Assembly (NCBI RefSeq): GCF_024518835.1
Contig: NZ_JANIGO010000001.1
Span: 434,001 to 498,000, forward strand
Reading direction: 5' to 3'
DNA from: Limnobacter humi
GTDB taxonomy: Bacteria; Pseudomonadota; Gammaproteobacteria; Burkholderiales; Burkholderiaceae_B
Length of the DNA stretch: 64,000 bases
In this document: in pieces, positions 19,113 through 44,626 of the stretch
Layout of the letters: the number at the start of each line of letters is the position of its first letter
Numbering within the stretch: the stretch's first letter is position 1
Position numbers and translations under genes: made by a program
The notes under the pieces: generated by a model
What the model was told of the DNA's origin: nothing
The model's database searches: none
Seen by the model: the letters and a program-made list of their open reading frames with translations, nothing else

Positions 19113-19115
19113 CGG

Positions 19116-19211: not shown

Positions 19212-20021
19212 ACGATTTGCCTCCTTAATTACGACTACCCCCCAAGCTGATGTTGTAATGGTATCTGGACGCTGCCCTTCTGCTATCGCACGGACATAAG
19301 GTGGCGGCTCATTCGTGACTCTGGTGAAAAGTTGGCCCACTTCGCTTTTGTTCTCGGTTTGGTTCGGCGACGTAGGAATGCTCATACCATGAGATAGCAT
19401 GTTCCAAGCGCGCTCAGGGAGAGAATCTCCGCCATATCCCGGACAGCAGACTAAGCAATGCCACGGATGTGCATTAGAAATTACTGAGTTCAGATCATTG
19501 GCTTTTTTCTTCTTCCGAAGAGATTCGACGTGAGACAAAGGAATTAGTGAGCATCCATAAGACTCAGCCAAGCAACCGAAACTGCCACAATGTTTAATTA
19601 ACTTGTGGAATTTTGAATGATCGTGAAGATAAAGGCAGTAAAGAGGTATCAAGCCATCTTTAGCGGACTCGCGCTTAAGTATGGTTGACTGATAGATTTT
19701 TGTTTTTCCAGACTTGTAGTGCAGATGCGCAAATGTGTTTGAACTAAGATGTAGCACCTTCGCTTGGATACGTAAGCCCAGCCATTTCGATTTTAAAGAG
19801 TCAGTTAACCACCATTCCCAATCTGCGCCATTTTTCCCCTCCTGTGACTTGGTAAATGCTTGGCAGAAAATTTCGGTGGGATGCCTGTCTTTCAGCTCTA
19901 GGATATTTAAATCTGTGAATGTTTCTTCAAGTGGCTGATGCCCAACTCGACGAGCACGCCCCATTTGATCGAACGTACGAAAGGCAAGTGATCGGAATGT
20001 TTCACAGAGAGTCGTGTGCAT
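19206..20021 (-). CDS. DUF6615-like cassette protein, candidate nuclease
   Basis: A 271-residue protein from ATG 20021; longer starts fall in the neighbouring attC. Residues 64-90 read GADWEWW...GLRIQAKVL. An acidic pair (D67, E69), then a strand ending in Q86-x-K88, resembles the metal-binding core of PD-(D/E)XK nucleases with a Q-x-K variant, preceded by an acidic helix (EETFTDLN). I recall this arrangement from DUF6615 proteins. A later cysteine-containing segment (WHCLVCCPGYG) is unassigned. No partner gene lies in the cassette. Confidence 0.55.
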   Translation of the reverse strand: MHTTLCETFRSLAFRTFDQMGRARRVGHQPLEETFTDLNILELKDRHPTEIFCQAFTKSQEGKNGADWEWWLTDSLKSKWLGLRIQAKVLHLSSNTFAHLHYKSGKTKIYQSTILKRESAKDGLIPLYCLYLHDHSKFHKLIKHCGSFGCLAESYGCSLIPLSHVESLRKKKKANDLNSVISNAHPWHCLVCCPGYGGDSLPERAWNMLSHGMSIPTSPNQTENKSEVGQLFTRVTNEPPPYVRAIAEGQRPDTITTSAWGVVVIKEANRG

Positions 20022-23617: not shown

Positions 23618-23653
23618 GTGTGTGTCTCCTCTTAGTTGCCGATGAGTGCCGTA

Positions 23654-26059: not shown

Positions 26060-26095
26060 GAGGGTCTCCTTATCGGGGGTTTTATCTGTTGTGGC

Positions 26096-27886
26096 TTAGA
26101 ACAGTTCTTCTTCCATTTCCATGAGCACTGCAGAACCGGCGCGGGCCTTGCGGATCAGCATCGCGGTTTCGGGCAGCATTTTCTGGAAGTAGAAACGGGC
26201 AGTGATCAACTTGGCTTTGTAGAAGTTGTCGCCACTGTTCTGCTTTTCCAGCGCGATCTTGGCGGACAGCGCAAAGAAGTAAGCGTAGAACATGTGGCCC
26301 ACCACGCGCAGGTAGTCCACCGCAGCGGCGCCCACTTCATCGGGGTTGGCCATGGCCTTGCCACCAATTTCCATGGTGAGCTTGGTCACTTTGTCGCCCA
26401 GGTCGGCCAGGGGCTCGATGAACTCTTTCATGGCGGGGTTGTTGGCCTCGGCTTCGCACAGGGCGCGCACGCGCTTGCCAAACTTCATCAACTTGGCACC
26501 ACCGTCGGCCAGCACTTTGCGGCCCAGCAGGTCAAGCGATTGAATGGTGTTGGTGCCTTCGTAAATCATGTTGATGCGGCTGTCGCGCACATACTGTTCC
26601 ATGCCCCACTCGGCGATGTAGCCGTGGCCGCCATACACCTGCAGGCAGTGTGAGGTGGCTTCCCAGGCGTTGTCGGTGATGAACGACTTCACGATGGGGG
26701 TTGTGAGGGCCACCATTTCAGCGGCTTCTTTGCGCACGGCTTCGTCGGGGTGGCTCAGTTCTTTGTCCAGCTCCAGCGAGGTCCACATGCACAGGGCGCG
26801 GCCACCTTCGGCATAGGCACGGGCGGTCAGCAGCATTTTGCGCACGTCGGGGTGCACAATGATTTTGTCGGCAGGCTTGTCGGCTTGCTTGGGGCCGGTC
26901 AGCGAACGGCTCTGAATGCGGTCCTTGGCGTACACCACCGCGTTTTGGTAGGCCACTTCGGTCAGGCCCAGGGACTGCATGCCCACGCCCAAGCGGGCGG
27001 CGTTCATCATCACGAACATGGCGTTCAGGCCCTTGTGCGGCTGACCAATAATCCAGCCGGTGGCGCCGTCCAGGTTCATCTGGCAGGTGGAGTTGCCGTG
27101 AATGCCCATTTTGTGTTCGATGGCACCGCAGTTGATGGGGTTGCGGGCGCCCAGTGAGCCGTCGGCATTGGGAATGAACTTGGGGACGAGGAACAGCGAA
27201 ATGCCTTTGGTGCCAGCGGGTGCGTCGGGCAAGCGAGCCAACACCAGGTGAATGATGTTCTCGGCCATGTCGTGTTCACCACTGCTGATGAAAATTTTCG
27301 CGCCGGTGATTTTGTAGCTGCCATCGGCCTGGGGTTCGGCCTTGGAGCGCAGCATGCCCAGGTCGGTACCGCAGTGGGGTTCGGTCAGGCACATGGTGCC
27401 GGTCCATTCGCCGCTGGTCAGCTTGGGCAGGTAGGTGGCTTTTTGCTCGGGTGTGCCGTGTGCGTGCAGGCAGTCGTACGCGCCGTGGGTGAGGCCAGGG
27501 TACATGGTCCAGGCCTGGTTGGCGGCGTTCATCATTTCGTAGAAGGCTTGGTTCACGGTCACGGGCAAGCCCTGGCCGCCGAATTCAGGGTCGCAGCTGA
27601 GTGCGGGCCAACCGGCTTCCACATACTGCTTGTAGGCCTCTTTAAAGCCAGTGGGTGTTTTCACCGAGAAGTCGGTTTTGTTGTGGGTACAGCCTTCGGA
27701 GTCGCCCACGGCGTTCAGGGGTTGCAGCACCTCGGCGCAAAACTTGCCGCCCTCTTCCAGAATCTGGTTGATGGTGTCGGCGTCCATGTCCGCAAAGGCA
27801 GGAATTTCCTTGAAAGTGGCTTCGGCATTGAACAGTTCGTGCATCACGAATTGCATGTCGCGAATGGGGGGCGTGTATTGGCTCAT
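26096..27886 (-). CDS. Acyl-CoA dehydrogenase with C-terminal extension
   Basis: A 596-residue flavoprotein of the long acyl-CoA dehydrogenase group: TMCLTEPHCGTDLG, the KITGAKIFISSGEHD region, the IYEGTNTIQSLDLLGRK motif and a C-terminal domain (to residue 596) typical of the larger subfamily often called AcdA or FadE-like. It introduces the first double bond in fatty acyl-CoA. Second gene of the operon, 22 bp after the TetR gene. Confidence 0.92.
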   Translation of the reverse strand: MSQYTPPIRDMQFVMHELFNAEATFKEIPAFADMDADTINQILEEGGKFCAEVLQPLNAVGDSEGCTHNKTDFSVKTPTGFKEAYKQYVEAGWPALSCDPEFGGQGLPVTVNQAFYEMMNAANQAWTMYPGLTHGAYDCLHAHGTPEQKATYLPKLTSGEWTGTMCLTEPHCGTDLGMLRSKAEPQADGSYKITGAKIFISSGEHDMAENIIHLVLARLPDAPAGTKGISLFLVPKFIPNADGSLGARNPINCGAIEHKMGIHGNSTCQMNLDGATGWIIGQPHKGLNAMFVMMNAARLGVGMQSLGLTEVAYQNAVVYAKDRIQSRSLTGPKQADKPADKIIVHPDVRKMLLTARAYAEGGRALCMWTSLELDKELSHPDEAVRKEAAEMVALTTPIVKSFITDNAWEATSHCLQVYGGHGYIAEWGMEQYVRDSRINMIYEGTNTIQSLDLLGRKVLADGGAKLMKFGKRVRALCEAEANNPAMKEFIEPLADLGDKVTKLTMEIGGKAMANPDEVGAAAVDYLRVVGHMFYAYFFALSAKIALEKQNSGDNFYKAKLITARFYFQKMLPETAMLIRKARAGSAVLMEMEEELF

Positions 27887-29845: not shown

Positions 29846-30496
29846 CTACACCACCACCACCAACTGCTGACCTGGCGTGACCTGCACCACATGTCCGCCA
29901 GTGAATTCGCCAAAAGCGGGCATGAGCAAGCTGTTGGCAGTTTGCACAAAACACGGCAGGCGGGCAGTGTCCCGCCCTTTGCCTTGAATGCGACACACCG
30001 GGTGCACATGCCCGGCAATGCTGAATGAACCTGCCGCAGCCTGTGGGTGGTGGCACAAAGCAAACCCGCCCAGCGCATGCGGCTCTGCATGCAGTTGAAT
30101 GTTGAGCATGGCCGGTGGCATGCCGGCCTTGCTGTCGTGGTTGCCCACAATCAAATGCAATTCCAAAGTGGCATGTGCAGAGCGCCATTGCTGAAACTCG
30201 GCCAACAAGGCCGGGTTGAGAGCGGCCTTGGCGTGGAACAAGTCGCCCAGGATATAGACGTGTTGCGGGTTGAACTGCGCAACGGCTTCAGAAAGGTTTT
30301 GCAGGTTACCCGATGTAGTGCCTGCCGGGACCGGAACCCCCAGGCTTCGGAACGTGGCAGCCTTGCCCAAATGAACATCAGCCACCAGCAACGCCTGATA
30401 CGCAGGCACATACACACTGCGAAGGCGTGACAACACAACGTCACCGGCTGGGGTGCTAATGCTCAGCGTACGTTGCGTGGCCGATAAAACCTGCAT
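29846..30496 (-). CDS. pdeM: Ligase-associated metallophosphoesterase PdeM
   Basis: A 216-residue calcineurin-like phosphoesterase: VADVHLGK (D-x-H), ILGDLFH (GD), VGNHD, then CHHP and GHVHP supply the metal ligands. The short length and sequence match the PdeM family that accompanies DNA ligase, exonuclease and helicase genes in the ligase-associated DNA damage response set. The partners lie at 31163-33814 and 41887-44609. Confidence 0.85.
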   Translation of the reverse strand: MQVLSATQRTLSISTPAGDVVLSRLRSVYVPAYQALLVADVHLGKAATFRSLGVPVPAGTTSGNLQNLSEAVAQFNPQHVYILGDLFHAKAALNPALLAEFQQWRSAHATLELHLIVGNHDSKAGMPPAMLNIQLHAEPHALGGFALCHHPQAAAGSFSIAGHVHPVCRIQGKGRDTARLPCFVQTANSLLMPAFGEFTGGHVVQVTPGQQLVVVV

Positions 30497-30610
30497 GAAA
30501 AATTGCCGGGGAGTAATGAAGCAGACCGGAGTTTAACAAAGCCAAATCCGCAAAAACATTGAACCGTGCCTTCGGGAAGTACACCCATGTTTTTCAACCC
30601 AATTGGGAGA

Positions 30611-31162
30611 ATGACGATGGGATGGTTTTCAACCAAGATGGACAACAATCGAATGGCCACTTCAGCGGGCTTCATGGTGTGCAGCGCCATGCTCGGGGCC
30701 AACGCCGAAATACTTGAGAAAGCAGAAACATTCACCAACCAACAAATTTCGCGGGGCAATACGCTGGTGGGCCAAACCTATGCACTGCAAGGCACCGCGA
30801 GCAAGCTCGGTCGGGAACTGCTGCAAGCCATCGGAAATCTCCGGCAGTTGAACCACGATATTGGCGACCTGAAAGGGGATTTGCTGGAGCGCGCCCATCA
30901 AATGATTTTTCTGGCCAATGACTATGACAAACCTCGACTGTTACGACAGACTGGCATGTCCGGGAAAGACATGGTGGAATTTGTGGCTGAAATGACCGAT
31001 GAGTCGATCGGAAATTTGCAGCTTTTGGCCAATCGAAACCCGAATTTCATCGCCGACATTCAGACCTTGGACCGGGCTGACTCCATCGTCAATGGAACTC
31101 GGGCTACCCGTGCAGCCAACAGCATTCCCATGCTGGAGTTTGAGGACCTGAACGACCGGTAA
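30611..31162 (+). CDS. Hypothetical protein with central helical region
   Basis: About 183 residues from ATG 30611. GTG/ATG choices at 30566 or 30617 are also possible, and 30617 sits best behind the GGGAGA site. An initial hydrophobic part (TSAGFMVCSAMLGA) is followed by a helical, charged stretch (LLQAIGNLRQLNHDIGDLKGDLLERA) that may form a coiled coil. No family recognised. It ends one base before the convergent helicase gene. Confidence 0.5.
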   Translation: MTMGWFSTKMDNNRMATSAGFMVCSAMLGANAEILEKAETFTNQQISRGNTLVGQTYALQGTASKLGRELLQAIGNLRQLNHDIGDLKGDLLERAHQMIFLANDYDKPRLLRQTGMSGKDMVEFVAEMTDESIGNLQLLANRNPNFIADIQTLDRADSIVNGTRATRAANSIPMLEFEDLNDR

Positions 31163-33814
31163 TCAGTTGGCCTGCAGGGCAGCCTTTTCCAGTTCGGCCA
31201 CCATGCGGGCCACGCGGTCGCTCAGTTTTTCCGTACTCACCATTTCGCGCAAGCGTTCAATCATCAGCGGAAATGCAAAGGGTGTGGGGCGTTCAATGGT
31301 GTTGAACACGAGCCGCTTGGCTTGCATGGATTTCAGTGCGGCTTCCATGCGGACAATGTCCAGCTCTTGCTCCAGGGCCTCGCGCTGGGCCTGGCTGAGT
31401 AACAAATTTCCGCGGTCATATTTTTGGAACACTTCAAAAAACAAACCGCTGGAGGCCTGCAGTTGCTTGGTGCTTTTGCCCGCACCCGGGTAGCCCTGGA
31501 ATATCAGCCCGGCAATGCGGGCAATTTCGCGAAAGCGGCGTTGCGCCAGTTCCGACGCATTCAAGCACTCCAGCACATCGGCCAGCAAGCAGTCGGTGCT
31601 GAGCACCGCTTTGCTGCCACCCCACCACTGCTGCCAGTTCACGGGCTCGGCGCTCAACAGCTCAAAGCCGTAGTCGTTCATGGAAATGGAAAACGTACCG
31701 GGCCGATGCTGCGAGGCGCGCCAGGCGAACAAACTGGCCAAGCCAATGTGCACGGTGCGGCCTTCAAACGGATACACAAACAGGTGGTGCCCTTCCTTGC
31801 TGTGCAGTTGCTCCACCAGCAAGGTTTGCGTACCGGGCAATTCACTCCAGCGGCGTTGCAACGTGAGCAGGTCGGTTAAGGCGCGCAGCTCAGGCCAATC
31901 GGGCTGCTTGCCCTGCTCCATGGCGCTGCGGGCCACATCCAGCATGTGCAGCGAGGCGTGGGCCAACTCGCTGCTGAGCGGCATTTTGCCGCCCTGCCAT
32001 TGCGGTACCGTGGCTTTTTTTCGGTCGGCTTTGCGAACGTAGGCGGTCATGTCACGCACCTTGACCAGCTCCAGCACACGGCCTGCAAAGCTGAAGCAGT
32101 CGCCGCTTTTCAGGCGGGCAATGAAACTTTCTTCAATGGTGCCCAAGCGACCACCGCTCATCCAAGCCACATGCATGGCCGAGTCGGACACAATGGTGCC
32201 CACCGACATGGCGTGGCGCCGGGCAATGTCGCGGCGAAGCACGCGGTATACACCAGTCTCATCACGCTGTATGCGTTGATAGTCGGGGTAGGCCTTCAGG
32301 CTTTCACCACCCTGCTCCACAAAAGTCAACGCCCAGTTGAAGGCCTCGCGCGATAGGCCGGAATAGGCCGCGGTGTTGCGCACCTCGGCATACAAATCGT
32401 CAGGCTCAAAGCCTGAGCCCATGGCAATGGTCACCAGGTGTTGCACCAGCACATCGAGTGGGGCTTGCGGGCTGTGACGGGATTCGATGTGACGCAATTC
32501 GGCGGCGTAGCGTGCAGCAGCGGCCTCCACCAGCTCCAACGCATGGGTGGGCACCACGGTAATGCGGGACGGCCGCCCCGGGGCATGGCCCGAGCGCCCG
32601 GCCCGCTGCAGCAGGCGGGCAACACCTTTGGGCGAACCGATTTGAATAACGCGGTCGACCGGCAAAAAATCAACACCCAGGTCGAGCGACGAGGTACACA
32701 CCACGGCTTTGAGTTGACCCATCTTCAAACCGTTTTCCACCCAGTCGCGCACCGATTTGTCCAGCGAGCCATGGTGAAGTGCAATGGAGCCTGCCAACTC
32801 GGGCCGCGCATCCAGCAAGGCCTGGTACCAAATTTCGGCCTGCGACCGGGTGTTGGTGAACACCAGTGCGGATGCACTTTGTTCGATTTCACGCACCACG
32901 GCATCCAGTTGCTTGAGCCCCAAATGGCCGCCCCAGGGAAAGCGCTCAAAGCTGGGGGGCACCAGGCTGTCGATCACCAACTGTTTGGGCAGCTTGCCCT
33001 GCACCAGTGTGGCGCTGCTGTGCAGGCGCACTGGGTAGGTGAGTGTGCGCAATGCATCCTCGAGATTGCCCAGGGTGGCACTCATGCCCCATACCTGCAA
33101 GGCGGGGTTGAGCTTCACCAAGCGTGCAATGGCCAATTGCAGTTGTACGCCGCGCTTGTTGCCCAACAGTTCATGCCACTCGTCCACCACAATGGCATCC
33201 AGCTTTTGCAACTGTGCTTGCCCGGTGGCGCGGGTCAACATGAGGGTGAGGCTTTCCGGCGTGGTCACCAGGGCAAACGGTGGCTTTTTGAGGATACGGG
33301 TGCGGGTGGCGGCATCGGTGTCGCCAGTTTGCAGGGCGACTTCGCAATCGCTGGCCAAACCGGCACAGGCCTTTTGAAGGGATTTGCAACTGTCGGCCGC
33401 CAGGGCGCGCATGGGGGTAATCCACAACACCCGGGTGGTGGCTGCGCGCGGCTTGGGCAACTGCGCAAGGCGCAGCAACAGGCCCACCCACACGGCCAGT
33501 GTTTTACCAGCGCCCGTGGTGGCATGCAGCAAACCACTGTGGCCGGCCTGCACCGCGGCCCACACCTCGGATTGATAATCGAACGGTGCCCAGCCCTGTG
33601 CTGCAAACCAATGGTGAACACCGCTCGGGTTAAGTGCCATCAGCGGGGCATTGGCATTGGGTGTAAAGCCAGGGGCTGGATTGGGGGCAGCGGGTTCGGC
33701 GGGTGAATCTACCGTGCTTTCATCGGCACGCGCACGCGCTTTGGCTTTGCGCCGCAAGGCCTTGAGCTGGGTACCCACATTGGGCCCCGGTGGAATACCC
33801 CGATACTCGGTCAT
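31163..33814 (-). CDS. Ligase-associated DEXH-box helicase (Lhr-like)
   Basis: An ~883-residue SF2 helicase from ATG 33814: motif I ATTGAGKTLAVW, Walker B with DEWH, SATLGNLEDA (motif III-like), a second RecA lobe with TNTRSQAE, and QRAGRSGHAPG (motif VI). The long C-terminal region follows the Lhr pattern. This is the ligase-associated helicase of a bacterial DNA-repair set. Here it lies 33 bp after the arginase-PutA gene on the same strand, away from the ligase itself. Confidence 0.9.
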   Translation of the reverse strand: MTEYRGIPPGPNVGTQLKALRRKAKARARADESTVDSPAEPAAPNPAPGFTPNANAPLMALNPSGVHHWFAAQGWAPFDYQSEVWAAVQAGHSGLLHATTGAGKTLAVWVGLLLRLAQLPKPRAATTRVLWITPMRALAADSCKSLQKACAGLASDCEVALQTGDTDAATRTRILKKPPFALVTTPESLTLMLTRATGQAQLQKLDAIVVDEWHELLGNKRGVQLQLAIARLVKLNPALQVWGMSATLGNLEDALRTLTYPVRLHSSATLVQGKLPKQLVIDSLVPPSFERFPWGGHLGLKQLDAVVREIEQSASALVFTNTRSQAEIWYQALLDARPELAGSIALHHGSLDKSVRDWVENGLKMGQLKAVVCTSSLDLGVDFLPVDRVIQIGSPKGVARLLQRAGRSGHAPGRPSRITVVPTHALELVEAAAARYAAELRHIESRHSPQAPLDVLVQHLVTIAMGSGFEPDDLYAEVRNTAAYSGLSREAFNWALTFVEQGGESLKAYPDYQRIQRDETGVYRVLRRDIARRHAMSVGTIVSDSAMHVAWMSGGRLGTIEESFIARLKSGDCFSFAGRVLELVKVRDMTAYVRKADRKKATVPQWQGGKMPLSSELAHASLHMLDVARSAMEQGKQPDWPELRALTDLLTLQRRWSELPGTQTLLVEQLHSKEGHHLFVYPFEGRTVHIGLASLFAWRASQHRPGTFSISMNDYGFELLSAEPVNWQQWWGGSKAVLSTDCLLADVLECLNASELAQRRFREIARIAGLIFQGYPGAGKSTKQLQASSGLFFEVFQKYDRGNLLLSQAQREALEQELDIVRMEAALKSMQAKRLVFNTIERPTPFAFPLMIERLREMVSTEKLSDRVARMVAELEKAALQAN

Positions 33815-33847
33815 GAACTGCACACGCTGACATCACATTGCGATGGT

Positions 33848-36800
33848 TTATTTTGCCATGGCTTGCGGCGCTGGGCTGGACAACAAGTCCACATTCCCAC
33901 CGGTGGCAGCGGTGTTGTTGCACACAGCCTGCTCATGAAACAGGCGATACAGGGGATAAACCCCGTCGCTGGTTTGAACAATGACCGGCACCAGGGCGGC
34001 ACAGTGGTGCAGCAGTTGCCGACGCAAGGTGGATTGCAAGGCACTGTCATGCTCGCACAGCACACCGTCCAACCTGGTCCAGTCAATGGTGTGCACACCC
34101 TGTACCCGCTGCTGGATGGGCTCGGGCAAGCTGGCCAACCAGCGTGGCCAGTTCAGGGTGGCTGAATGCAGAATGCACGCCTGTGCGCCCGCATGGCACA
34201 CCGCCATGACTTGCAGCAGCAGGGCATCGGCCTCCTGCGCGGTACACCACACCAGGCTGCGGGGCAGCAGGTGGTAGGTGTTGCGTTCACCAGTGGGGCC
34301 AGGCAACAACAAACCCGGTGGCGCGCTGGCCGCTTGCACCAGTGACCACTCAGCCCGGTGCATGAGGAACGGCAACATGAGGGGCCCGCCAGCCTTGGGG
34401 CCGGTACCGGAAAGCCCCCGTCCACCAAAGGGCTGGCTACCCACCACCGCGCCCACTTGGTTGCGGTTGATGTACAGATTGCCCACCCGGGCTCGCTGTT
34501 GAACCCAGGCCTGAAACGTACCCAAACGACTGTGCACACCGGCAGTAAGGCCGTAGCCCAGTGCATTGACAGCGGCCATGCGCTGCGACCACACCCCGGC
34601 CGGGCAACGCCACACATGCAGCACGGGCCCAAACACTTCTTCGGCCAGCAGATCAAGGCCATGGACTTCCACCAAGGCAGGGGCCAGGAAGTAACCCGGC
34701 TGCTGCGCCTGCTGACGGCGGTGTTGGGCGCATTGCCAAACCGTCATGCCCTGCGACTCCAGGCTCAATACATGAGCCTGAACCCGGTCACGCGCATGGC
34801 CATCAATCATTGGGCCCATGTCGGTTTGCGGGTGTATTGGGTTGCCCAATGTTCGGGTCGCCAATGCAGCCTTTAGTTTGTTCAGCAGGGTGTCTGCAAT
34901 GCTGCTGTGCACGCACAGCAGGCGCAGTGCAGAACAGCGTTGCCCCGCACTGTCGAAGGCGGCATGCAGCACATCCTGAACCACTTGTTCCAGGTGGGCA
35001 GAAGAATCGACCCAGAGCGCATTTTGCCCACCGGTTTCAGCCACCAGTTGAGCAGGGCTGCGTGGGCCAGCTGCCTTGAGCAAGCTGGCTTCGATGAGAC
35101 GAGCCACCGAGAGGGACCCAGTGAACATCACCAAGCGAACTGCCTGCGCTGCGCACAAGGCTTGCCCAACGGTGCCATCGCCGGGCAGGCACTGCACCAC
35201 GGCGGTGGGTTGATGAACACGCGCCAAGGCCCGGTGAATACATTGCATGGCTTGGTGGGCAATCAAGGGGGTTTGTTCGGCGGGCTTGGCGATCACCGGA
35301 TACCCTGCAGCCAGGGCTGCGGCAATTTGCCCCATGAAAATGGCCAGTGGAAAATTCCACGGGCTGATGCAAACGGCCACACCACCGGTGGCCTGGCCTG
35401 GGTTTTCTGGCAGGCGTTCCAGTTGCGCAGCATAGTAAAAACAGAAGTCGATGGCCTCACGCCATTCCGCCAGGGCATTGGCCCAGGTTTTCCCGGCCTC
35501 CAGCACCAACAAGGCCATCAAGTCTTCGGCATGGCGGCTTAACTCCACCGCCAACGCATTCATGCAGGCCACCCGCGTGGAATGGGCACTGCAGGACCAT
35601 GCCGCCGCCCGTGCGGCAGCATCCCGCAAGGCTTGCTGGACATCGTCGGGAGTGGACCATTGCACCTGCCCGACCCGCTCGGTGGGGGCAGCGGGGTTGA
35701 AAACATCCCGCCAAGGGCCCTTGCTGGCATGGGGTGACGCCGGCAACACCGGATAAGCCAGCCAGGCATGCGCCTGACGATGCGCCAACGCCTGCGCCCA
35801 ACGGTGCGCAGTGGCCGGGCAGTGAAGGTCGATGCCCGGGGAATTGGGGCGGTCATACACCTGTGCGGGCATGCGGCAAGCCGGGTTGGCCGTGGGCCGC
35901 TGTTGATGCAGCACCGTCCAGGGGTGTTGTGCCAGCGTGGTCGGGTCGATGTGGGGGTCGAGAAGCTGATTCACAAAGGAGGTGTTGGCGCCATTTTCGA
36001 GCAAGCGGCGAACCAAATAGGGCAGCAACTGGGCCTGTGCGCCAATGGGCGCATACACGCGCGTGGTGTGGGCACCGGTGTGCATGGATTCTGAATACAG
36101 ACTTTCGCCCATGCCGAAAAGGCACTGCAATTCAAAGCGGGTGACGCCCTGCTGTTGCACCATGTGCTCCACCAGTGCGTAGGTGTGGGCATTGTGCGTG
36201 GCCAATTGCGGCAAGACCAGTTCGTGGTGTTGCAACAGGCGCCACGCACACAGGGCATAGGACAGGTCTGTGTGGACTTTTTGTGTAAAAACCGGAAAAG
36301 CCGACAAACCCTGCTGCTGGGCCTTTTTGATTTCACTGTCCCAATACGCCCCCTTGACCAGGCGAACGGGAATGTGGCGTCCACTGGTGCGGGCCAGCTG
36401 AATCACCCAGTCCACCACGGCTGGTGCGCGGGTTTGATAGGCCTGAATAACCCAACCCAACCCTTGCCAACCTTGCAAGGCAGGCTCCAGGGCCAGCCGT
36501 TCAAACAAGTCCATGGACAGCTCAAGCCGCTCGCTTTCCTCCGCATCCAGGTTCACCAGCAGGCCGGCAGACTTGCAAGCCAGGCACAAACTGAGCAGAC
36601 GGGGATACAGGCTGGCGTGCACCTGTTCGCGCTGCGCGGTTTCATAGCGCGGGTGCAGGGCCGACAATTTGATGGACAGGCTGTGGGCCTGCCAATGAAA
36701 ACCCTCGGCGGGCAACGGCCGGTGTTGCAGCGCGCGCTGCAGGCAGTCGATGGCCTGGTGGTAGCTGCGCAGGTAGCCTTGCGCCTCTGCATCGCTTTGC

Positions 36801-38260
36801 GCGGCCTCACCCAGCATGTCGAATGAACAGAACGGACCAGACTGCGCAGCCAGCAAACCCGCCTCAATGGTTTCGGCCATGACAAACTGTTTACCCATGA
36901 TGCCTACGGCAAGTTCCACCGCCCTGCGCACGAGGCGCTCGCTGCCGTGTTTCAATTTGCTGGCCACCAACAAACCCCAGGTGGCCGCATTGACCAGGGT
37001 GGAATCACTGTGGCCCAAGTGGGCCTTCCAGTCAGCATGGCTTAGTTTGTCCTGAATCAGGGCTTCACGGGTGCGCGGATCTGGAATGCGCAGCAAGGCT
37101 TCCGCCAGGCTCATCAGGGCAACCCCTTCGTCGGTGGACAGACCAAATTCCTGCATCAGCACATCAACACCGATGGCGTGGCTGCGTTGCTGGCGCACCC
37201 GGTGGATGTGTTCAAGGGTTCGTCGTTCAATGGCTGCGTCATCCAGCCGGTCCGATGGAAAATTCTCCAGCATCAGGCTCACGGCTTGCGCCTCCTCCAT
37301 GCGATGCAGGCGGCGCAGCCCATGGCGCTGGTCCAACAGCATGCGCAGCAAGGCCAGGGTGTGTTGAAGGGTTTGCCCGGTCAGGTCTGCCGACGGATTG
37401 AACTCCACCAAGTCGACCGACCCCACACAGCCGGTTTGTGCCAGCCGCAGCATGCACTGCTGCATTTGCTGCAGGCTGGGACCACCGGCAACCGGGGTAC
37501 CCACACCCGGCGCATCTTGAGGGTCCAGACAGTCCACATCGAAGCTGACATGGACATGGGTGCCGGGTTCCACACCCTGCAATGCGCGTTGCATCACCGC
37601 GTCCATGCCCAGCTCGCGAATGTGCTGCATGGTGAACACCTGAACCTGCGATTCATCCAATAGACCTTGCTCGCCAGGGTCGACGGACCGGACGCCGATT
37701 TGGGTAATTTGACCCGACTGCAGACAAGGCGCAGCATGGCCAGGGTTCAGGACCTCGAGCAGCTCGGCTGGACCCCAGCCGCACAAAGCCGCCAATGGCA
37801 TGCCATGCAAATTGCCCGATGGCGAGGTTTTTGCCGTGTTGATGTCGGCATGGGCATCCACCCAGACCACGCGCAGCGGCCGGTTGTGGGTTTTACAGTG
37901 GGCAGCAACCGCAGCAATGGAGCCCATGGCCAGGCTGTGGTCGCCACCCAGCAACAGTGGTACCTCACCCCGGTGCAAGGCTTGGGCCACTGCATCGCGA
38001 ATGTGCGTTACCCACGCCATGGCCTCGGGCAGATTTCGGTAACCATCCACCCGGTGCCGGTGCTGAACCGCTGGGCCTTGAAGGTCACCAACATCCTGAA
38101 CGGCCCAGCCCAAGTGGGTTAGCTGTGCGACCAAGCCCCCACAGCGCAAGGCCGCCGGGCCACCGGCACAGCCGGTGTAGGTGGTGCCCACATCGGTGGG
38201 GGCGCCAACCACACACAGCGCATTCTTGATTGCAGCGGGTGTGTTGGCGGGGTTCATCAC
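33848..38260 (-). CDS. Arginase-proline dehydrogenase-aldehyde dehydrogenase fusion (PutA-like)
   Basis: A 1470-residue protein joining three enzymes. Residues ~12-320 are an arginase/agmatinase fold with all manganese motifs: GGDHS (105-109), DAHAD (135-139) and SFDVDCLDP (D241, D243). Residues ~335-800 are the PutA proline dehydrogenase (IKLSALHPRYE, VNLDAEESERLELS, RLVKGAYWDSEIK). Residues ~850-1300 are the glutamate-semialdehyde dehydrogenase (PWNFPLAI, FTGSLSVARL, VAETGGQNAL, GQRCSALR with the catalytic Cys). No DNA-binding domain precedes the PutA part. It would convert arginine to ornithine and, after ornithine cyclodeaminase has made proline, oxidise proline to glutamate. Its ATG overlaps the cyclodeaminase stop. 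Confidence 0.9.
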   Translation of the reverse strand: MMNPANTPAAIKNALCVVGAPTDVGTTYTGCAGGPAALRCGGLVAQLTHLGWAVQDVGDLQGPAVQHRHRVDGYRNLPEAMAWVTHIRDAVAQALHRGEVPLLLGGDHSLAMGSIAAVAAHCKTHNRPLRVVWVDAHADINTAKTSPSGNLHGMPLAALCGWGPAELLEVLNPGHAAPCLQSGQITQIGVRSVDPGEQGLLDESQVQVFTMQHIRELGMDAVMQRALQGVEPGTHVHVSFDVDCLDPQDAPGVGTPVAGGPSLQQMQQCMLRLAQTGCVGSVDLVEFNPSADLTGQTLQHTLALLRMLLDQRHGLRRLHRMEEAQAVSLMLENFPSDRLDDAAIERRTLEHIHRVRQQRSHAIGVDVLMQEFGLSTDEGVALMSLAEALLRIPDPRTREALIQDKLSHADWKAHLGHSDSTLVNAATWGLLVASKLKHGSERLVRRAVELAVGIMGKQFVMAETIEAGLLAAQSGPFCSFDMLGEAAQSDAEAQGYLRSYHQAIDCLQRALQHRPLPAEGFHWQAHSLSIKLSALHPRYETAQREQVHASLYPRLLSLCLACKSAGLLVNLDAEESERLELSMDLFERLALEPALQGWQGLGWVIQAYQTRAPAVVDWVIQLARTSGRHIPVRLVKGAYWDSEIKKAQQQGLSAFPVFTQKVHTDLSYALCAWRLLQHHELVLPQLATHNAHTYALVEHMVQQQGVTRFELQCLFGMGESLYSESMHTGAHTTRVYAPIGAQAQLLPYLVRRLLENGANTSFVNQLLDPHIDPTTLAQHPWTVLHQQRPTANPACRMPAQVYDRPNSPGIDLHCPATAHRWAQALAHRQAHAWLAYPVLPASPHASKGPWRDVFNPAAPTERVGQVQWSTPDDVQQALRDAAARAAAWSCSAHSTRVACMNALAVELSRHAEDLMALLVLEAGKTWANALAEWREAIDFCFYYAAQLERLPENPGQATGGVAVCISPWNFPLAIFMGQIAAALAAGYPVIAKPAEQTPLIAHQAMQCIHRALARVHQPTAVVQCLPGDGTVGQALCAAQAVRLVMFTGSLSVARLIEASLLKAAGPRSPAQLVAETGGQNALWVDSSAHLEQVVQDVLHAAFDSAGQRCSALRLLCVHSSIADTLLNKLKAALATRTLGNPIHPQTDMGPMIDGHARDRVQAHVLSLESQGMTVWQCAQHRRQQAQQPGYFLAPALVEVHGLDLLAEEVFGPVLHVWRCPAGVWSQRMAAVNALGYGLTAGVHSRLGTFQAWVQQRARVGNLYINRNQVGAVVGSQPFGGRGLSGTGPKAGGPLMLPFLMHRAEWSLVQAASAPPGLLLPGPTGERNTYHLLPRSLVWCTAQEADALLLQVMAVCHAGAQACILHSATLNWPRWLASLPEPIQQRVQGVHTIDWTRLDGVLCEHDSALQSTLRRQLLHHCAALVPVIVQTSDGVYPLYRLFHEQAVCNNTAATGGNVDLLSSPAPQAMAK

Positions 38261-39303
38261 ACCGCCGCCTCGGGTTGCGGGGCCATTGCGCCGTGCAGCA
38301 CCCCATACAGGTTTTTGGGGTCACTGAGGTTGGGAACAATGTCGAGGCTCTCGCCAATGTGGTGTTCCAATGCCAGGTGGTGCAACACGGTGAGTGCAGA
38401 AAAATCCTCCAACGCAAAACCAACCGAGTCGAACACGGTGATGTCGGCATCGGTTTGACGGCCAGGTGCAGTACCGGTGAGCACGGTCCACAATTCGGTG
38501 ACCGGAAAGTCGGCAGGCAGCTGCTGAATGTCGCCCTCCAGCCGTGTTTGTGGTTCGTATTCCACAAACACGCGGGCCTTGCGCAACACATCGGGATGAA
38601 GTTCGGTTTTGCCGGGGCAGTCGCCGCCCACCGCATTGATGTGAACACCGCAGCCGACCTGCTCAACGGTCAAAATGGTGGCGCGGGTTTTGTCGGCAGT
38701 CAGCGTTGTGATCACATCCACTCCTGAAACGGCATGAGACACGCTGGCACCCAGCATAACCTTGAATCCGCATTCCTTCAAATGTTGGGCCAGGCGAAGG
38801 CTGGCCGCGGGGTCAATGTCGAACAGGTGAAACTGGTCGATACCCAGCAGCGCATGAAAGCCCACGGCCTGAAATTCACTTTGGGCCCCGTTGCCGATGA
38901 TGGCCATGCAGCGGGCATTTCGTCGAGCGAGGTGGCGGGCGGCCAACGCCGAGGTGGCCGCAGTGCGCAAGGCTGTGGTCAGGGTGAGTTCCGACACCAG
39001 GAGGGGAAAGCCGGTGTGCACATCGGCCAGCACCCCCAAGGCCATGACGGTGGACAAACCCCGGGACGGATTGCCCGGGTGGCCGTTCACGTATTTGAAG
39101 GCATAGCGTTCGGCATTGCTGACCGGCATGAGCTCGATCACACCAAGTGTGGAGTGGCTGGCCAGGCGGGCACTTTTTTCAAAGCAGTGCCAGTGGGTGA
39201 AGTCGTGCTCAATCTGCCGGGCAATGCGGGTGATGAGGTTTTCAAGGCCGACCCGGTGAGCCAGGCGGGCCACATGCTGAACACTGAGGTACCGGGTGTG
39301 CAT
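38257..39303 (-). CDS. Ornithine cyclodeaminase
   Basis: A 348-residue enzyme of the ornithine cyclodeaminase/mu-crystallin family, from ATG 39303: GVIELMPV, FKYVNGHPGNP, the NAD-binding MAIIGNGAQSEFQ (Rossmann glycines), TTLTADKT and the INAVGGDCPGKTEL signature. It converts ornithine directly to proline and ammonia. It is the first gene of the arginine operon, and its stop overlaps the start of the arginase-PutA fusion (ATGA), placing the intermediate enzyme of the pathway next to both flanking activities. Confidence 0.93.
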   Translation of the reverse strand: MHTRYLSVQHVARLAHRVGLENLITRIARQIEHDFTHWHCFEKSARLASHSTLGVIELMPVSNAERYAFKYVNGHPGNPSRGLSTVMALGVLADVHTGFPLLVSELTLTTALRTAATSALAARHLARRNARCMAIIGNGAQSEFQAVGFHALLGIDQFHLFDIDPAASLRLAQHLKECGFKVMLGASVSHAVSGVDVITTLTADKTRATILTVEQVGCGVHINAVGGDCPGKTELHPDVLRKARVFVEYEPQTRLEGDIQQLPADFPVTELWTVLTGTAPGRQTDADITVFDSVGFALEDFSALTVLHHLALEHHIGESLDIVPNLSDPKNLYGVLHGAMAPQPEAAV

Positions 39304-39444
39304 GGTAGCCTCCTGCGCGAAACGGGTCAGACCATGGATTGATTGTGCAAGCCATTGAACCCAACAAAAAGCCACTTTTTGCTTGCAAAACGGCAAATAG
39401 CGCTCAAAATGACCAAACCTGCTGTCGATATGCAAGGTTTGACC
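39304..39444. promoter_or_regulatory. Divergent control region of the arginine operon
   Basis: About 140 bp between ornithine cyclodeaminase and a divergent Lrp-family gene. The A/T-rich stretch CACTTTTTGCTTGCAAAACGG in the middle is a likely Lrp-type target. The layout suggests the regulator controls the operon and itself, probably responding to an amino acid of the pathway. Confidence 0.5.
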
Positions 39445-39867
39445 ATGGATGCGCTGGACCGTGAACTGATTGCCCGATTGCGGGCCAATGCCCGAACCCC
39501 AGTGGCCGACCTGGCCCATGCATTGAAGGTAAGCCGCAGCACGGTGAGCAACCGCATGGCCAAACTGGAGCGCGAGGGCGTGGTGACAGGCTACACCGTG
39601 CTGTTAAAACCCGACAGCCATGCCCACCGGATTGTAGCGTGGATGAGCATTCAGATTGAGGGCAATGACAGCCGGCGCGTGATGCTGAGCTTGCTGGGTG
39701 AGCCTGGTGTGACCGCCCTGCATGGCACCAATGGCCGGTGGGATGCGCTGGCCGAGTTGCAGGCTGACAGCCTGGCAGAATTGTCCAATGTGCTGGAGCG
39801 GATACGCCTCATCAAGGGCATCCAAAACACCGAGACCAGTATTCACCTGTCGAATTTTCGGGGGTGA
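39445..39867 (+). CDS. Lrp/AsnC-family transcriptional regulator
   Basis: A regulator of ~140 residues from ATG 39445, which gives the standard MDALDRELIARLRANAR opening behind an AAGG site; ATG 39409 is an alternative. The helix-turn-helix reads VADLAHALKVSRSTVSNRMAKLEREG and is followed by the RAM effector domain (IVAWMSIQIEG, LHGTNGRWDALAELQAD). It is divergent from, and probably controls, the cyclodeaminase/arginase-PutA genes. Confidence 0.9.
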   Translation: MDALDRELIARLRANARTPVADLAHALKVSRSTVSNRMAKLEREGVVTGYTVLLKPDSHAHRIVAWMSIQIEGNDSRRVMLSLLGEPGVTALHGTNGRWDALAELQADSLAELSNVLERIRLIKGIQNTETSIHLSNFRG

Positions 39868-39900
39868 TTGAACAGGCTCACAGCGTGAGCCTGTTCAATC
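39866..39900. terminator. Strong hairpin at convergent gene ends
   Basis: A 16-bp perfect stem (GATTGAACAGGCTCAC / GTGAGCCTGTTCAATC) with a 3-base loop between the Lrp gene and mnmH. It has no T run but is placed as a terminator for both. Its core recurs at 22342-22376 and 54816-54844. Confidence 0.75.
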
Positions 39901-39904
39901 CGTA

Positions 39905-40993
39905 TCAACCCCTGGCCAACACCTGCACGGCCAATGTGCGCAGGGCTGCATCATCCAGCGCATCCACTGCAAACACGGTGGCTTGGTCGTAGCCTTTGAG
40001 GTTGTGTGCGGTGGATTTGCGATAGGCAGGGTCGTAGTGGTTGACCAACAAGTCAGTCACCAAGTCAGGCCAGGCGGCGGCATCCACCCAGGCATTCCAT
40101 TGGGCCAGCACAGCCTGCCCATGCAGGCTGTACAAAAAGCCCAATTGGGTTTTCAGCAGCTCGGGTTGGCTCAGAAAATAATCGTAGTCGCGCAGCAGGT
40201 AATCCACCCGCGCGGCCACAGGCGCTTCAATGCGCAGCACCGTGCCTTGCTCGCGCATGCACTCGATCAAGGTCTCGGGCACGCGCAAGCTGCCAATCTT
40301 TTTGCTTTCTGCTTCGATGTACACGGGCTTTTCGGGGTTGAGTGTGCGCAGCACATTCCACACCCGGGTTTCGAACAGCTTTTGCGAAGGCTGGCTTTGC
40401 CCGGGCAACACACCCAGTACCGAGCCCTTGTGACAGGCCAATGTTTCCAGGTCCAGCACCTGCCCGCCCTGCCGGGCAATTTCCTCCAGCAGCCGGGTTT
40501 TGGCGCTGCCGGTTTCGCCACACACCACGCGGTATTGAAACCGGGTTGGCCATTGCGCGAGGTCGCTCAGCACCTGGGTGCGAAACACCTTGTAGCCACC
40601 CTTGAGTTGTGCAGCAGGCCAACCCACTTGCCGCAACACCGTGGTCATGGCGCCAGACCGGCTGCCACCGCGCCAACAGTAAATGAGGGGCTTCCACTGT
40701 TTGTCGTGGTGAATGAATTGTTCTTCCAGGTGGCGGGCAATGTTTTTGGACACCAGGGCCGCCCCCACCTTCTTGGCCTCGAAGGGCGACACCTGTTTGT
40801 ACAGCGTGCCCACGCGAATGCGTTCCTCATCATCCAGCACCGGGCAATTGATGGCCCCGGGCATGTGGTCGAGTGCGTATTCGGCGGGCGAACGCACGTC
40901 GATGATGACGGTGTAGTCATCCAACTGACTGAGATCAACCTGGTCGGGATGTTTGGAAGAACGCGGGGCGTTGCTGGGGGTGGTGGGTTCCAT
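39905..40993 (-). CDS. mnmH: tRNA 2-selenouridine synthase MnmH (SelU)
   Basis: A 362-residue enzyme from ATG 40993. An N-terminal rhodanese domain (VIIDVRSPAEYALDH, catalytic Cys in LIYCWRGGSRSG) is followed by a P-loop domain (VCGETGSAKTRLLEE). This is the MnmH/YbbB architecture, which replaces the sulfur of 2-thiouridine at the tRNA wobble position with selenium, by way of a geranylated intermediate. Last gene of the ligase operon, 7 bp after DUF429. No selenophosphate synthetase gene is in the window. Confidence 0.93.
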   Translation of the reverse strand: MEPTTPSNAPRSSKHPDQVDLSQLDDYTVIIDVRSPAEYALDHMPGAINCPVLDDEERIRVGTLYKQVSPFEAKKVGAALVSKNIARHLEEQFIHHDKQWKPLIYCWRGGSRSGAMTTVLRQVGWPAAQLKGGYKVFRTQVLSDLAQWPTRFQYRVVCGETGSAKTRLLEEIARQGGQVLDLETLACHKGSVLGVLPGQSQPSQKLFETRVWNVLRTLNPEKPVYIEAESKKIGSLRVPETLIECMREQGTVLRIEAPVAARVDYLLRDYDYFLSQPELLKTQLGFLYSLHGQAVLAQWNAWVDAAAWPDLVTDLLVNHYDPAYRKSTAHNLKGYDQATVFAVDALDDAALRTLAVQVLARG

Positions 40994-41000
40994 GCGCGGA

Positions 41001-41903
41001 TTATACCGGCCTTGTGGCGGGTATTCCGGCAATCCAGCCTTCCACCGGGTCGATGCGCTGGGGCAAGCCGAATTGCTGGTCGGCCCGCTTGGCGCACCAC
41101 GCAGCCACCAGGCAGCACAACACCGCGTCCAGGTGGTCGGCCTTGGCGTCTTCCAGCAGGCGGGCACGCAGGTAAGGCCGCACCTGCACACGGATGCCGA
41201 GCAACATGCCCTCCTCCAGCGCGCACAGCAATTCCGAGCGGGCCATGCGGCGGTCGGGCGTATCCTTTTTGGGGTCGTCGGATTTGTAGCTTTGCCGCCC
41301 CAGCACCTGCCGTGCCCAGTAGCCCGGGTAGCCTTCCAGCGCAATGCGTTGGGGGTCGCCAGCCTGCATGCCGGGAATGAACACACCCGCTTTTTTCAAC
41401 AACGGTGCGCCCGCATGCAGCATGTAGGCCACTGGCGGGTTGACCCACTTCATGGAGGGCGATGAGCCGGCGGGTTTGTCGCAAGCCCGATGGGCAAATT
41501 TTTGACCGGCAGGCCGGGCGTCGCACCAGGCCTTGAAAATGCTGCGGATGTCGTCACGCCCCAGGCTGGCGTAAAAATCGATGAGGTCGCCCCAGGCGCG
41601 TTTGTCGGTGCGCTGCGCGCCGGGCCAGTTGAGTTTGTCCACCAACTCGCGGGACAAACCAAACGGCATGTCGATCACCGCCAGGTATGGTGCCGGGCCG
41701 GCTTCACCAGCCACGGTGGGCCCGTGCTGCAACAATGTCTCAAAGCCTTCCAGATGGGTGAATGAATGCAATTCGCCCACTTTCAGCACGCCCTCCACCC
41801 ACTGCCCCTGCGCCACAGCCACCGGCTTGGCCTTGGTGGGGCTGCTGGAAAAGTCGATGCCCAGCAGGGTGTATTCGTCAATCGATTCAAGCAGTAAAGG
41901 CAT
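41001..41903 (-). CDS. DUF429 protein (RNase H-like)
   Basis: A 300-residue DUF429 protein: LLGIDFSSSPTKAKP at the start gives the first strand and its acid, VIDMPFGLSRELVDKL the second acidic motif, and CALEEGMLLGIRVQ with a later DHLDAVLCCLVAAW closes the fold. DUF429 proteins are predicted RNase H-fold nucleases of unknown target. It overlaps the ligase gene by 17 bp and precedes mnmH, and probably belongs to the repair set. Confidence 0.85.
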   Translation of the reverse strand: MPLLLESIDEYTLLGIDFSSSPTKAKPVAVAQGQWVEGVLKVGELHSFTHLEGFETLLQHGPTVAGEAGPAPYLAVIDMPFGLSRELVDKLNWPGAQRTDKRAWGDLIDFYASLGRDDIRSIFKAWCDARPAGQKFAHRACDKPAGSSPSMKWVNPPVAYMLHAGAPLLKKAGVFIPGMQAGDPQRIALEGYPGYWARQVLGRQSYKSDDPKKDTPDRRMARSELLCALEEGMLLGIRVQVRPYLRARLLEDAKADHLDAVLCCLVAAWCAKRADQQFGLPQRIDPVEGWIAGIPATRPV

Positions 41904-43599
41904 GCAGCAACTCGGTCAGGGTTTGAAGCGTGTCGGCTTCGTGAAGGGGTTTGTCATGGCGGATGCGCAGCATGCGCGGAAAACGCACGGCCACGCCACT
42001 TTTGTGACGGGTGGATGGCGCGATGGCCTCGAACCCCAATTCAAACACCAAGGTGGGGGCCACGGTGCGCACTGGGCCAAATTTGTCGACGGTGTATTTG
42101 CGGATTTCGCGGTCCACCAGTTTGAATTCGTCGTCCGTGAGGCCCGAATACGCCTTGGCAAACGGCACCAGGCGGGGCAAACCCCGGGCCACGGTGTCGT
42201 CCACTTTTTCGCCTTGGGCAATGGCTTGCACCACCGCCTGCGCCTCGTCGGCCGAGGTGGGCGTTCGGTCCCACACGGCGAAGGTGTAGTCGGTGTACAA
42301 ACTGGCACGGCGGCCATGGCCCCGTTGGGCATACACCAGCACACAGTCCACGCTCATGGGGTCGATTTTCCATTTCCACCACACGCCATCGGTTTTGCTA
42401 CGCCCCACCCCGTAGCGGGAATCCCGGTGCTTCAACATGAAGCCCTCGACACCGCGGGCACGGCTTTCAGCGCGCAAGGCCTGAAGCGCGGCCCAACTGG
42501 GTTGCTTAACCAATTCCGACAACAAGAAGTGCGGCGTGTTGAGGGCTGCAATCTGCTCCAGCTGTGTACGGCGTTCATGCTGAGGGCGGTCCACCCACCG
42601 CACACCCTGCAGCCGCAACAGGTCGTAGGCCATGAACACCACCGGGGCGTCTTGCTGCAACTTTTTGCTCACGGTTTTGCGGTTGAGCCGGGCTTGTAAC
42701 GCGTTGAATGGCGCGGGTGAGCCATTAAGCCAAACCAATATCTCGCCATCCAGCGTGAGCCCATCGGGCAGGTTGGCAAACGCCGCCGTCAATTCCGGAA
42801 ACTGCTCACTGACCAACTCTTCACCGCGAGACCAAATCCACACCTGTCCGGCATCTTTCACCACCTGGGCGCGAATGCCGTCAAACTTCCATTCCACCAG
42901 CCACTGCGACACATCGCCCAAGGTCTCGGGTGCGTCTTGCAGTGGGTGGGCCAAAAAAAACGGCAGGGGCTGGCCAGGGCGGTGGTCGCTGTCAGCCTGG
43001 GCTTCATCAGCCAGCAAGGCGCGGTAGCTTTCTGCCGTGGGTTGGTGGTCGGCATCGGCATACCCCATGAGGCGGGTGGCGAGCAGCTTGGCATCCAGCC
43101 CACTGGTTTGGGCCAAAGCACGCAACACCAAAAGCTTGGACACCCCCACCCGGAAACCACCACCGACCAGTTTCACAAACAGGAAGCGGCCAGCCGTGTC
43201 GAGGTCCATCCAGCAGCGCAACACCGCCTCCAGCCGGGCCGTGTCGTCCAGGTTGCGCAGTGGCAAGATGCGTTGTTCCACCCAATGGGCCAGGCCCTGT
43301 TCGGGCAAGGGTTCGGCTTCTGCCAGCGGCAGCACCTGGGCAATGGTTTCTGCCAGGTCGCCCACGGCCTGGTAGCTTTCTTCAAACAGCCAGTCGGGCA
43401 GACCACTGACCTGCAATGCGGCCTCACGCAACTGGCGGGTGGGCACCGTGCGGCGGGGTTTTCCACCCACCAAAAAATACACGGCCCAGGCGGCATCGGC
43501 CGGGCTGGCCTGCCGAAAATAATCGGCCATGGCCTGCACCTTGTGCAGGGTGGAGGTGGAGGCATCCAGCGCATTGAACAGGACCGCAAATTCTTTCAT
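41887..43599 (-). CDS. ATP-dependent DNA ligase
   Basis: A 570-residue ligase from ATG 43599. The adenylated Lys lies in VEWKFDGIRAQ (motif I). LTLDGEILVW (III), VFMAYDLLRL (IIIa), GVEGFMLKHRDS (IV) and WWKWKIDP (V) follow in order, after an N-terminal DNA-binding domain of ~190 residues. The length and neighbours match the ligase of the ligase-associated DNA damage response set. It overlaps the exonuclease gene by 4 bp and DUF429 by 17 bp. Confidence 0.92.
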   Translation of the reverse strand: MKEFAVLFNALDASTSTLHKVQAMADYFRQASPADAAWAVYFLVGGKPRRTVPTRQLREAALQVSGLPDWLFEESYQAVGDLAETIAQVLPLAEAEPLPEQGLAHWVEQRILPLRNLDDTARLEAVLRCWMDLDTAGRFLFVKLVGGGFRVGVSKLLVLRALAQTSGLDAKLLATRLMGYADADHQPTAESYRALLADEAQADSDHRPGQPLPFFLAHPLQDAPETLGDVSQWLVEWKFDGIRAQVVKDAGQVWIWSRGEELVSEQFPELTAAFANLPDGLTLDGEILVWLNGSPAPFNALQARLNRKTVSKKLQQDAPVVFMAYDLLRLQGVRWVDRPQHERRTQLEQIAALNTPHFLLSELVKQPSWAALQALRAESRARGVEGFMLKHRDSRYGVGRSKTDGVWWKWKIDPMSVDCVLVYAQRGHGRRASLYTDYTFAVWDRTPTSADEAQAVVQAIAQGEKVDDTVARGLPRLVPFAKAYSGLTDDEFKLVDREIRKYTVDKFGPVRTVAPTLVFELGFEAIAPSTRHKSGVAVRFPRMLRIRHDKPLHEADTLQTLTELLHAFTA

Positions 43600-44609
43600 G
43601 CTGCGGGCACCTCGTCGTCTGCCCCTTGCTCGCCACCATATTCCGTTTGGAATGCGCGGGCATTGAGCCCTTGCTCCTGCAGCCAGCGCACCATCACCGG
43701 CACATAACCATGGGTCACAATCACGTTTTCGGCACCGGTGGCACCAATGGCTTTCATGAGGCCAGGCCAGTCGGCATGGTCGGACAGCACAAAGCCGCGG
43801 TCCACATTGCCACGCCGGCGTGCGCCACGCAACTGCATCCAGCCAGAGGCCAGGGCATCGGAATAGTCCGAACCAAACCGCTTCATCCAACTGGCGCCTT
43901 GGGCAGCAGGCGGTGCAATGGCCAGGCAGTTTTTATAGATGGCTTTGTCGGTGACTTCGCTCACCAGCAACGTGGGCGGCAAGGCAATGCCCGATTCCCG
44001 GTAAGCGGTGTTCAAGGCCTGCGCTGCGCTGTGGCACACAATGGGGCCGATCGAGGAATCCACTCCCGCCACAATGCGCTGAGCTTTGCCAAACGAGTAG
44101 CCGTACAGCACGCTGGCTTTGCCCTGCGCGGCATTGGCAGCCCACCAGGCATTGATGTCGGCGAACACATCGGCCTGCGGTCGCCAGCGGTAAACGGGCA
44201 AACCAAAGGTGGACTCGGTGATGAAGGTGTGGCACTTCACCGGTTCAAAAGGTGTGCAGGTGGCGTCGGGTTGCACTTTGTAGTCGCCACTGGCCACCCA
44301 AATTTCACCCTGGTATTCCAGCCGAACCTGGGCCGAGCCCAACACATGCCCCGCCGGGTGAAAAGAGATGCGAACGCCCCGGTGTTCAACAGCCGTGCCG
44401 TAGGGCAAGGTGTCCAGGTGGATGTTGCCCAAGCGTGTGCGCAACACTTGCGCGCCAGCCTCAGCACACAGATAGTGGTTGTGGCCATAGCGGGCATGGT
44501 CTGCGTGGGCATGGGTGATGACAGCGCGGTCCACTTTGCGCCAGGGGTCGATGTAAAAATCACCGGGCGGGCAATACAAACCCTCCGGGCGGCTAACAAC
44601 CAATTCCAT
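43596..44609 (-). CDS. Ligase-associated DNA exonuclease (MBL fold, SNM1-like)
   Basis: About 337 residues from ATG 44609. A metallo-beta-lactamase fold carries THAHADHARYG near residue 35 as metal ligands, FHPAGHVLGSAQV as a later motif, and a beta-CASP region with VLSDHADWPGL and VIVTHGYV. This is the exonuclease partner of the bacterial ligase set. Its stop overlaps the ligase start, giving tight coupling. The upstream gene is clsB, 17 bp away. Confidence 0.9.
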   Translation of the reverse strand: MELVVSRPEGLYCPPGDFYIDPWRKVDRAVITHAHADHARYGHNHYLCAEAGAQVLRTRLGNIHLDTLPYGTAVEHRGVRISFHPAGHVLGSAQVRLEYQGEIWVASGDYKVQPDATCTPFEPVKCHTFITESTFGLPVYRWRPQADVFADINAWWAANAAQGKASVLYGYSFGKAQRIVAGVDSSIGPIVCHSAAQALNTAYRESGIALPPTLLVSEVTDKAIYKNCLAIAPPAAQGASWMKRFGSDYSDALASGWMQLRGARRRGNVDRGFVLSDHADWPGLMKAIGATGAENVIVTHGYVPVMVRWLQEQGLNARAFQTEYGGEQGADDEVPAA

Positions 44610-44626
44610 GCTGAACACCGACTGCC

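Follow-up and report, generated by a model that had tools for sequence, protein, structure and literature searches.

The 64,000-nucleotide (nt) window analysed here, from contig NZ_JANIGO010000001.1 of Limnobacter humi, contains a gene on the reverse strand (33848..38260) in which an arginase stands in front of a PutA-type bifunctional proline oxidase. The best explanation of the whole, with a probability of about 0.7, is an operon in which a net loss of about 67 nt made one trifunctional arginase-PutA protein, with both the enzyme activities and the direction of the change being inferred. Judged by homology, this one gene joins step one of the arginine-to-glutamate route to its final two steps, and the middle step is encoded separately by an ornithine cyclodeaminase (OCD) gene. 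The pathway itself is already known, and the new part, as far as the listed matches in the open-access literature go, is the fusion of arginase to PutA.

Domain composition of the fusion

The fusion gene is a single uninterrupted frame of 1470 codons in the open reading frame (ORF) analysis, starting at GTG 38260 or ATG 38257, and the full arginase that a preliminary description of this DNA had read ahead of PutA in one frame is borne out by the frame itself, by Pfam and NCBIfam matches and by conserved motifs. The arginase domain occupies residues 15-310 (37331..38218, reverse strand), with a Pfam arginase match over residues 15-306 (E 1.3e-68) and a score of 261.1 bits against the NCBIfam model rocF_arginase TIGR01229, above the curated cut-off of 227.6. 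The closest solved arginase is the Bacillus enzyme 1cev, matched over query residues 15-310. The motifs GGDHS (105-109), DAHAD (135-139) and SFDVDCLDP (239-247) are kept, as is SPSGNLHG, corresponding to the SGNxHG segment; the first three are the Mn-binding motifs of arginases. Eight residues (H108, D135, H137, D139, N150, H152, D241 and D243) are invariant in 24 arginase rows, comprising the fusion and 23 others.

The PutA half, also on the reverse strand, comprises an N-terminal region (Pfam Pro_dh-DNA_bdg, 36884..37168, residues 365-459), proline dehydrogenase (PRODH; Pfam Pro_dh, 35966..36841, residues 474-765), L-glutamate gamma-semialdehyde dehydrogenase (GSALDH, an aldehyde dehydrogenase or ALDH; Pfam Aldedh, 34382..35710, residues 851-1293) and a C-terminal domain resembling that of type B and type C PutAs (33875..34333, residues about 1310-1462). 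PRODH and GSALDH are thus both present in one chain, as in other PutAs, and the NCBIfam model PRK11904 for bifunctional PutA is matched above its cut-off. Among solved structures the best match is SmPutA (5kf6, query residues 314-1301, E 1.2e-261). The motifs YLVRRLLENGANTSF (748-762), AETGGQNA (1074-1081) and SAGQRCSAL (1104-1112), metal-binding or catalytic, are kept as well. About 160 residues extend beyond the ALDH domain; PutAs from family members and from E. coli plasmid records are matched as far as residue 1460-1461, and the C-terminal domain can be aligned in all seven PutAs of the congeners described below, although its separate match to SmPutA is weak (query 1316-1460 on SmPutA 1083-1232, i-E 0.023). 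In the available text of PMC5293562, what defines a type B PutA is a C-terminal domain that follows the core and is 100-200 residues long. The ribbon-helix-helix (RHH) domain that marks type C PutAs was not found in the fusion protein (Pfam, E 0.001), and the arginase occupies its place. With PRODH, GSALDH, a C-terminal domain and no RHH, the PutA half is type-B-like by its predicted domains.

Neither a second PutA nor a second arginase (E 1e-30) was found in the genome. Relative to the seven congeners and most other alignment rows, the fusion PutA is without about 17 residues near residue 437 (around 36952), behind the GLLVASK segment, and the seven congener PutAs (L036-L042) are without about 30 residues that the fusion PutA has at the start of the ALDH part.

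The operon and the predicted pathway

Immediately upstream of the fusion lies the OCD gene (38257..39303, reverse strand), whose product scores 532.1 bits against PRK07589, above the curated cut-off of 350, and whose stop overlaps the start of the fusion as GTGATG. Its likely start is ATG 39303 (codon 73 in the longest frame), preceded by an AGGAGG; this start leaves room for a divergent gene of the Lrp/AsnC family of regulators (39409..39867, forward strand, starting at 39409, 39430 or 39445). The arrangement is that of an arginine-degradation operon of OCD, arginase and putA, probably with the Lrp-type gene as its divergent regulator. The available text of PMC5293562 reports that putA of Rhodobacter capsulatus is activated by PutR, a member of the Lrp/AsnC family, and the divergent Lrp gene beside the fusion operon fits that precedent.

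The arginase half would convert arginine and water to ornithine and urea, the separate OCD would convert ornithine to proline and ammonia, and the PutA half would oxidise proline via pyrroline-5-carboxylate (P5C) to glutamate. Homology accordingly upholds the earlier proposal that two genes, the fusion and the overlapping OCD gene, cover the predicted route from arginine to glutamate. The further suggestion that intermediates may be channelled is not supported between arginase and PutA, since OCD is a separate protein and ornithine must leave the fusion, be cyclised and return as proline. The P5C tunnel of PutA itself would be the only channelling expected in the fusion. Searches of the genome found no ADI-family protein, no AstA and no urease alpha subunit. 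Of the three arginine-degrading routes looked for, the present one is the only one predicted in the genome, with arginine decarboxylase and other routes lying outside the search; as urease alpha was not found, use of the urea via urease is not expected.

Unfused genes in the congeners

Among the 15 other genomes of the genus (two of them incomplete, G002 at 85% and G011 at 65%), an arginase is matched at E 1e-30 in nine, and seven (G001, G003, G005, G008, G012, G013 and G014) share the gene order OCD, arginase, putA and DEXH helicase. An Lrp gene is matched in six of the seven operon-bearing stretches, the exception being L036 of G001. Two further genomes, G004 and G011, have OCD and arginase without an adjoining putA, and the OCD of G011 is matched as three pieces. 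In all seven congeners with the full gene order, arginase and putA are separate genes that overlap out of frame by 11 nt, the arginase stop overlapping the putA Met that precedes ELDRL. Between two conserved anchors, the final LLN of the arginase and L(T/A)RV(D/E)E of PutA, the spacing is 88 nt in seven of seven congeners and 21 nt, in frame, in the fusion. The net difference of 67 nt removes the arginase tail, the arginase stop and the first PutA codons and brings putA into frame, so that a net loss of this size across the overlapping ends of the two genes would have produced the trifunctional protein. This difference likely arose as a loss in the fusion lineage, not as a gain in the congeners, a direction that we infer from the arginase standing alone in the other relatives examined.

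In both the PutA tree (support 100/100) and the arginase tree (93/84), the fusion is the sister of those seven congeners. Of the PutAs compared, that of a family member (G016, 1257 aa) has the RHH domain PF21775 (E 3.2e-13), which is found in none of the seven congener PutAs (E 0.01). As RHH is lacking from these seven and from the fusion alike, its place would already have been free before the fusion arose. The likely path therefore runs from an OCD-arginase pair, through the joining of a putA without RHH in the ancestor of the fusion genome and the seven, to fusion in the former's lineage.

The preliminary description had called such a fusion rare, and this holds within the searches made. 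The arginase searches took in 16 genomes of the genus, 268 of the family, 300 of the order, 369 of the class and 398 of the phylum, sets that overlap and of which the last three are samples. No other arginase-PutA fusion was found among the 301 other genomes (counted by hand from lists) in which an arginase was matched at E 1e-30; more divergent arginases, or those of genomes outside the samples, would escape this search. A contig scan of the genomes of named relatives gave 10 loci, none of which matched before residue 310 of the fusion, and among the best 15 of 3438 plasmid records none matched before residue 293. Two plasmid records cover at least 80% of the fusion query, and H2 (80%, residues 293-1468) may be one of them. 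Besides the fusion, only two arginase frames in the genus-to-phylum searches exceed 1000 aa, in G397 (1276 aa) and G1258 (1025 aa). Both were rejected as second fusions: each is a long chance frame that runs upstream (in G397 over the OCD gene) and ends with the arginase, with no PutA after it.

Authenticity of the join and alternative explanations

The join between the two halves comprises residues 311-326 (37283..37330, reverse strand), at which the anchor distance is 67 nt shorter than in the seven congeners; it had earlier been placed at about residues 320-340, close by. A real, lineage-specific fusion of arginase and PutA is the likeliest account of this region. It had also been proposed that absence of the fusion from close relatives would speak against it. 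Literally the absence is found, as 0 of 15 congeners carry a fused gene, but it does not count as a refutation, because the net difference of 67 nt explains both states and none of the congeners is a near relative.

Several observations nevertheless weigh against the preferred explanation. It is known from one genome only, and its nearest relatives are only about 46-54% identical over the fusion proteins. Both trees warn of long branches meeting at the fusion row. The PutA half evolves modestly faster, with a mean distance to outgroups of 0.488 compared with 0.442-0.468 for the congeners. The first nine codons of the join (residues 311-319) score slightly better for codon use in frame 1 than in the fused frame (5.56 vs 4.83 bits), and the mechanical ORF set behind the codon table contains some antisense frames. 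Finally, 157 in-frame starts of the gene were scored for Shine-Dalgarno-like sites, and the strongest (-12.0 kcal/mol) belongs to GTG327, at the join.

This last observation underlies the alternative that survives best, though we consider it unlikely, in which PutA is made chiefly alone from GTG327 and read-through yields the fusion as a minor or tolerated product, or in which both forms constitute a built-in mixture. The frame reported in the preliminary description stands, but this candidate start was missed there. It consists of an AGGAGG, a spacing of 8 nt and the GTG of codon 327 (37280..37296, reverse strand), and only four of the 1333 in-frame starts lying inside ORFs of the window's mechanical set attain its value of -12.0 kcal/mol. 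A strong site is what would be expected at GTG327 if PutA were still made separately, and the OCD start likewise lies behind an AGGAGG. Against this, PutA homology reaches upstream of codon 327, with matches beginning at residues 312-317, and a start there would cut into the first confidently predicted PutA helix (from residue 323). The AGGAGG can also be explained as two GAG codons before a G, GAG accounting for 30 of the 62 Glu codons (GAA, 32), and unless translation were stopped there would still be a full-length product. Under the preferred reading of a fused protein, some free PutA may also arise from codon 327 alongside it.

A sequencing or assembly error, in which an indel near the join merges two separate genes, is improbable. 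The occurrence of the fusion in one genome would accord with it, as would the finding that a one-base shift lets the arginase end at a TGA overlapping GTG327 as GTGA (frame 1). However, the join differs from the congeners by a net 67 nt, which is not a multiple of three, and a single-base error could not account for this. Over residues 311-326 as a whole, codon use prefers the fused frame (9.1 bits vs 3.1 and -2.9 in the other frames), the longest homopolymer within the join is GGG, and each of six neighbouring genes (22.4-33.8 kb, compared with congener stretches L078 and L079) is open in a single frame.

The decay of the operon, with the fusion as a stage toward lost function, is very improbable: the roughly 17 residues missing near residue 437 and the modestly faster PutA half point toward it, but all 1470 codons are open, every checked motif is kept, and the ratios of fusion-to-congener to congener-to-congener distance for arginase (2.64), PRODH (2.75) and ALDH (2.81) stand beside those of other genes (helicase 2.42, OCD 2.09, Lrp 5.09). 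The corresponding ratio for the C-terminal domain is 1.66, and the arginase half is not faster than its counterparts (outgroup distance 0.501 vs 0.507-0.528). At the level of sequence, these ratios do not mark the fusion out as decaying. Protein identity to the seven congeners is 75-77% for the helicase, 58-67% for Lrp (six loci), 55-66% for OCD, 50-53% for arginase and 46-47% for PutA.

Predicted structure and assembly

Modelled as two separately folded halves, the fusion has a confident arginase part (block pLDDT 77-97, last helix at residues 296-309) that superposes on Bacillus arginases with TM scores of 0.91-0.94 (normalised by target length). In this arginase-side model the PutA part is predicted with low confidence (block pLDDT 40-69). 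The PutA-side model has its first confident helix at residues 323-333, and confidence is low at the join in either model. Arginases are trimers or hexamers. The arginase core would sit where type C PutAs carry RHH and could set the oligomeric state, with PutA units arranged around a trimer or hexamer of arginase. Fixed stoichiometry and co-localisation would be the gain, rather than channelling from arginase to PutA. According to the available text of PMC5293562, a type B PutA given an N-terminal RHH domain remained catalytically active and differed in its oligomeric state. By analogy with this EcRHH-RcPutA chimaera, and given the trimeric or hexameric state of arginases, the arginase core would be expected to set the assembly of the fusion.

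Relation to known systems

Like the type B PutA of R. capsulatus, as described in the available portion of PMC5293562, the fusion has a PRODH and GSALDH core and a C-terminal domain without RHH, and it resembles the engineered EcRHH-RcPutA chimaera of the same source in carrying a domain added at the PutA N-terminus, catalysis having been kept in the chimaera. In contrast to that chimaera, the N-terminal addition is here a natural enzyme, arginase, and not a DNA-binding domain. The 'trifunctional' type C PutAs of the E. coli kind likewise bear an extra N-terminal module, but theirs is an RHH repressor domain, of which none was found in the fusion (E 0.001). According to the accessible part of PMC8262935, cyanobacterial AgrE and PutA lead from arginine via ornithine and proline to glutamate with two polypeptides, as would the present system. 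AgrE, however, is an arginine dihydrolase-OCD fusion that releases ammonia and CO2, whereas here an arginase yielding urea is fused to PutA and OCD stands alone; OCD has its own gene and no ADI-family protein is matched in the genome. The OCD-arginase pairs of related genomes also place OCD ahead of arginase (with putA next in seven congeners and without it in G004 and G011), but their putA is separate and out of frame, or elsewhere. No arginase-PutA fusion was found among the matches listed in the open-access literature, covering titles and the starts of abstracts, in which 'puta' also matches 'putative'.

Wider neighbourhood

The arginine operon lies within a ligase-associated DNA-damage-response cluster (29849-44618, reverse strand) that includes an exonuclease, an ATP-dependent ligase, a DEXH helicase and a PdeM endonuclease, and the helicase is also downstream of putA in the seven congeners. 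Beta-oxidation genes for a thiolase, a 3-hydroxyacyl-CoA dehydrogenase/enoyl-CoA hydratase and an acyl-CoA dehydrogenase (22421-27886, reverse strand) are 89-93% identical to those of congeners G008 and G013, a conservation far above that of the fusion. Positions 1-20000, with a G+C of about 0.50-0.54 compared with about 0.55-0.62 elsewhere in the window, carry an AbiEii-like nucleotidyltransferase (9330-10733) and an AAA_21 ATPase (14290-15957) and are perhaps a mobile or defence island.

Implications

The seven congeners with overlapping genes and their one fused relative constitute a natural unfused and fused pair within one genus. The pair allows study of how a gene overlap becomes a protein fusion and of an oligomeric N-terminal enzyme in the place of the PutA RHH domain, and it also bears on whether joining non-consecutive steps of a pathway brings a gain. 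A more speculative possibility, doubtful at present, is a working trifunctional arginase-PutA enzyme in which the arginase core replaces RHH as the assembly module and the internal start sets the ratio of fused to free PutA. If true, this would be a natural gene of dual output, with living relatives that retain the unfused, overlapping state.

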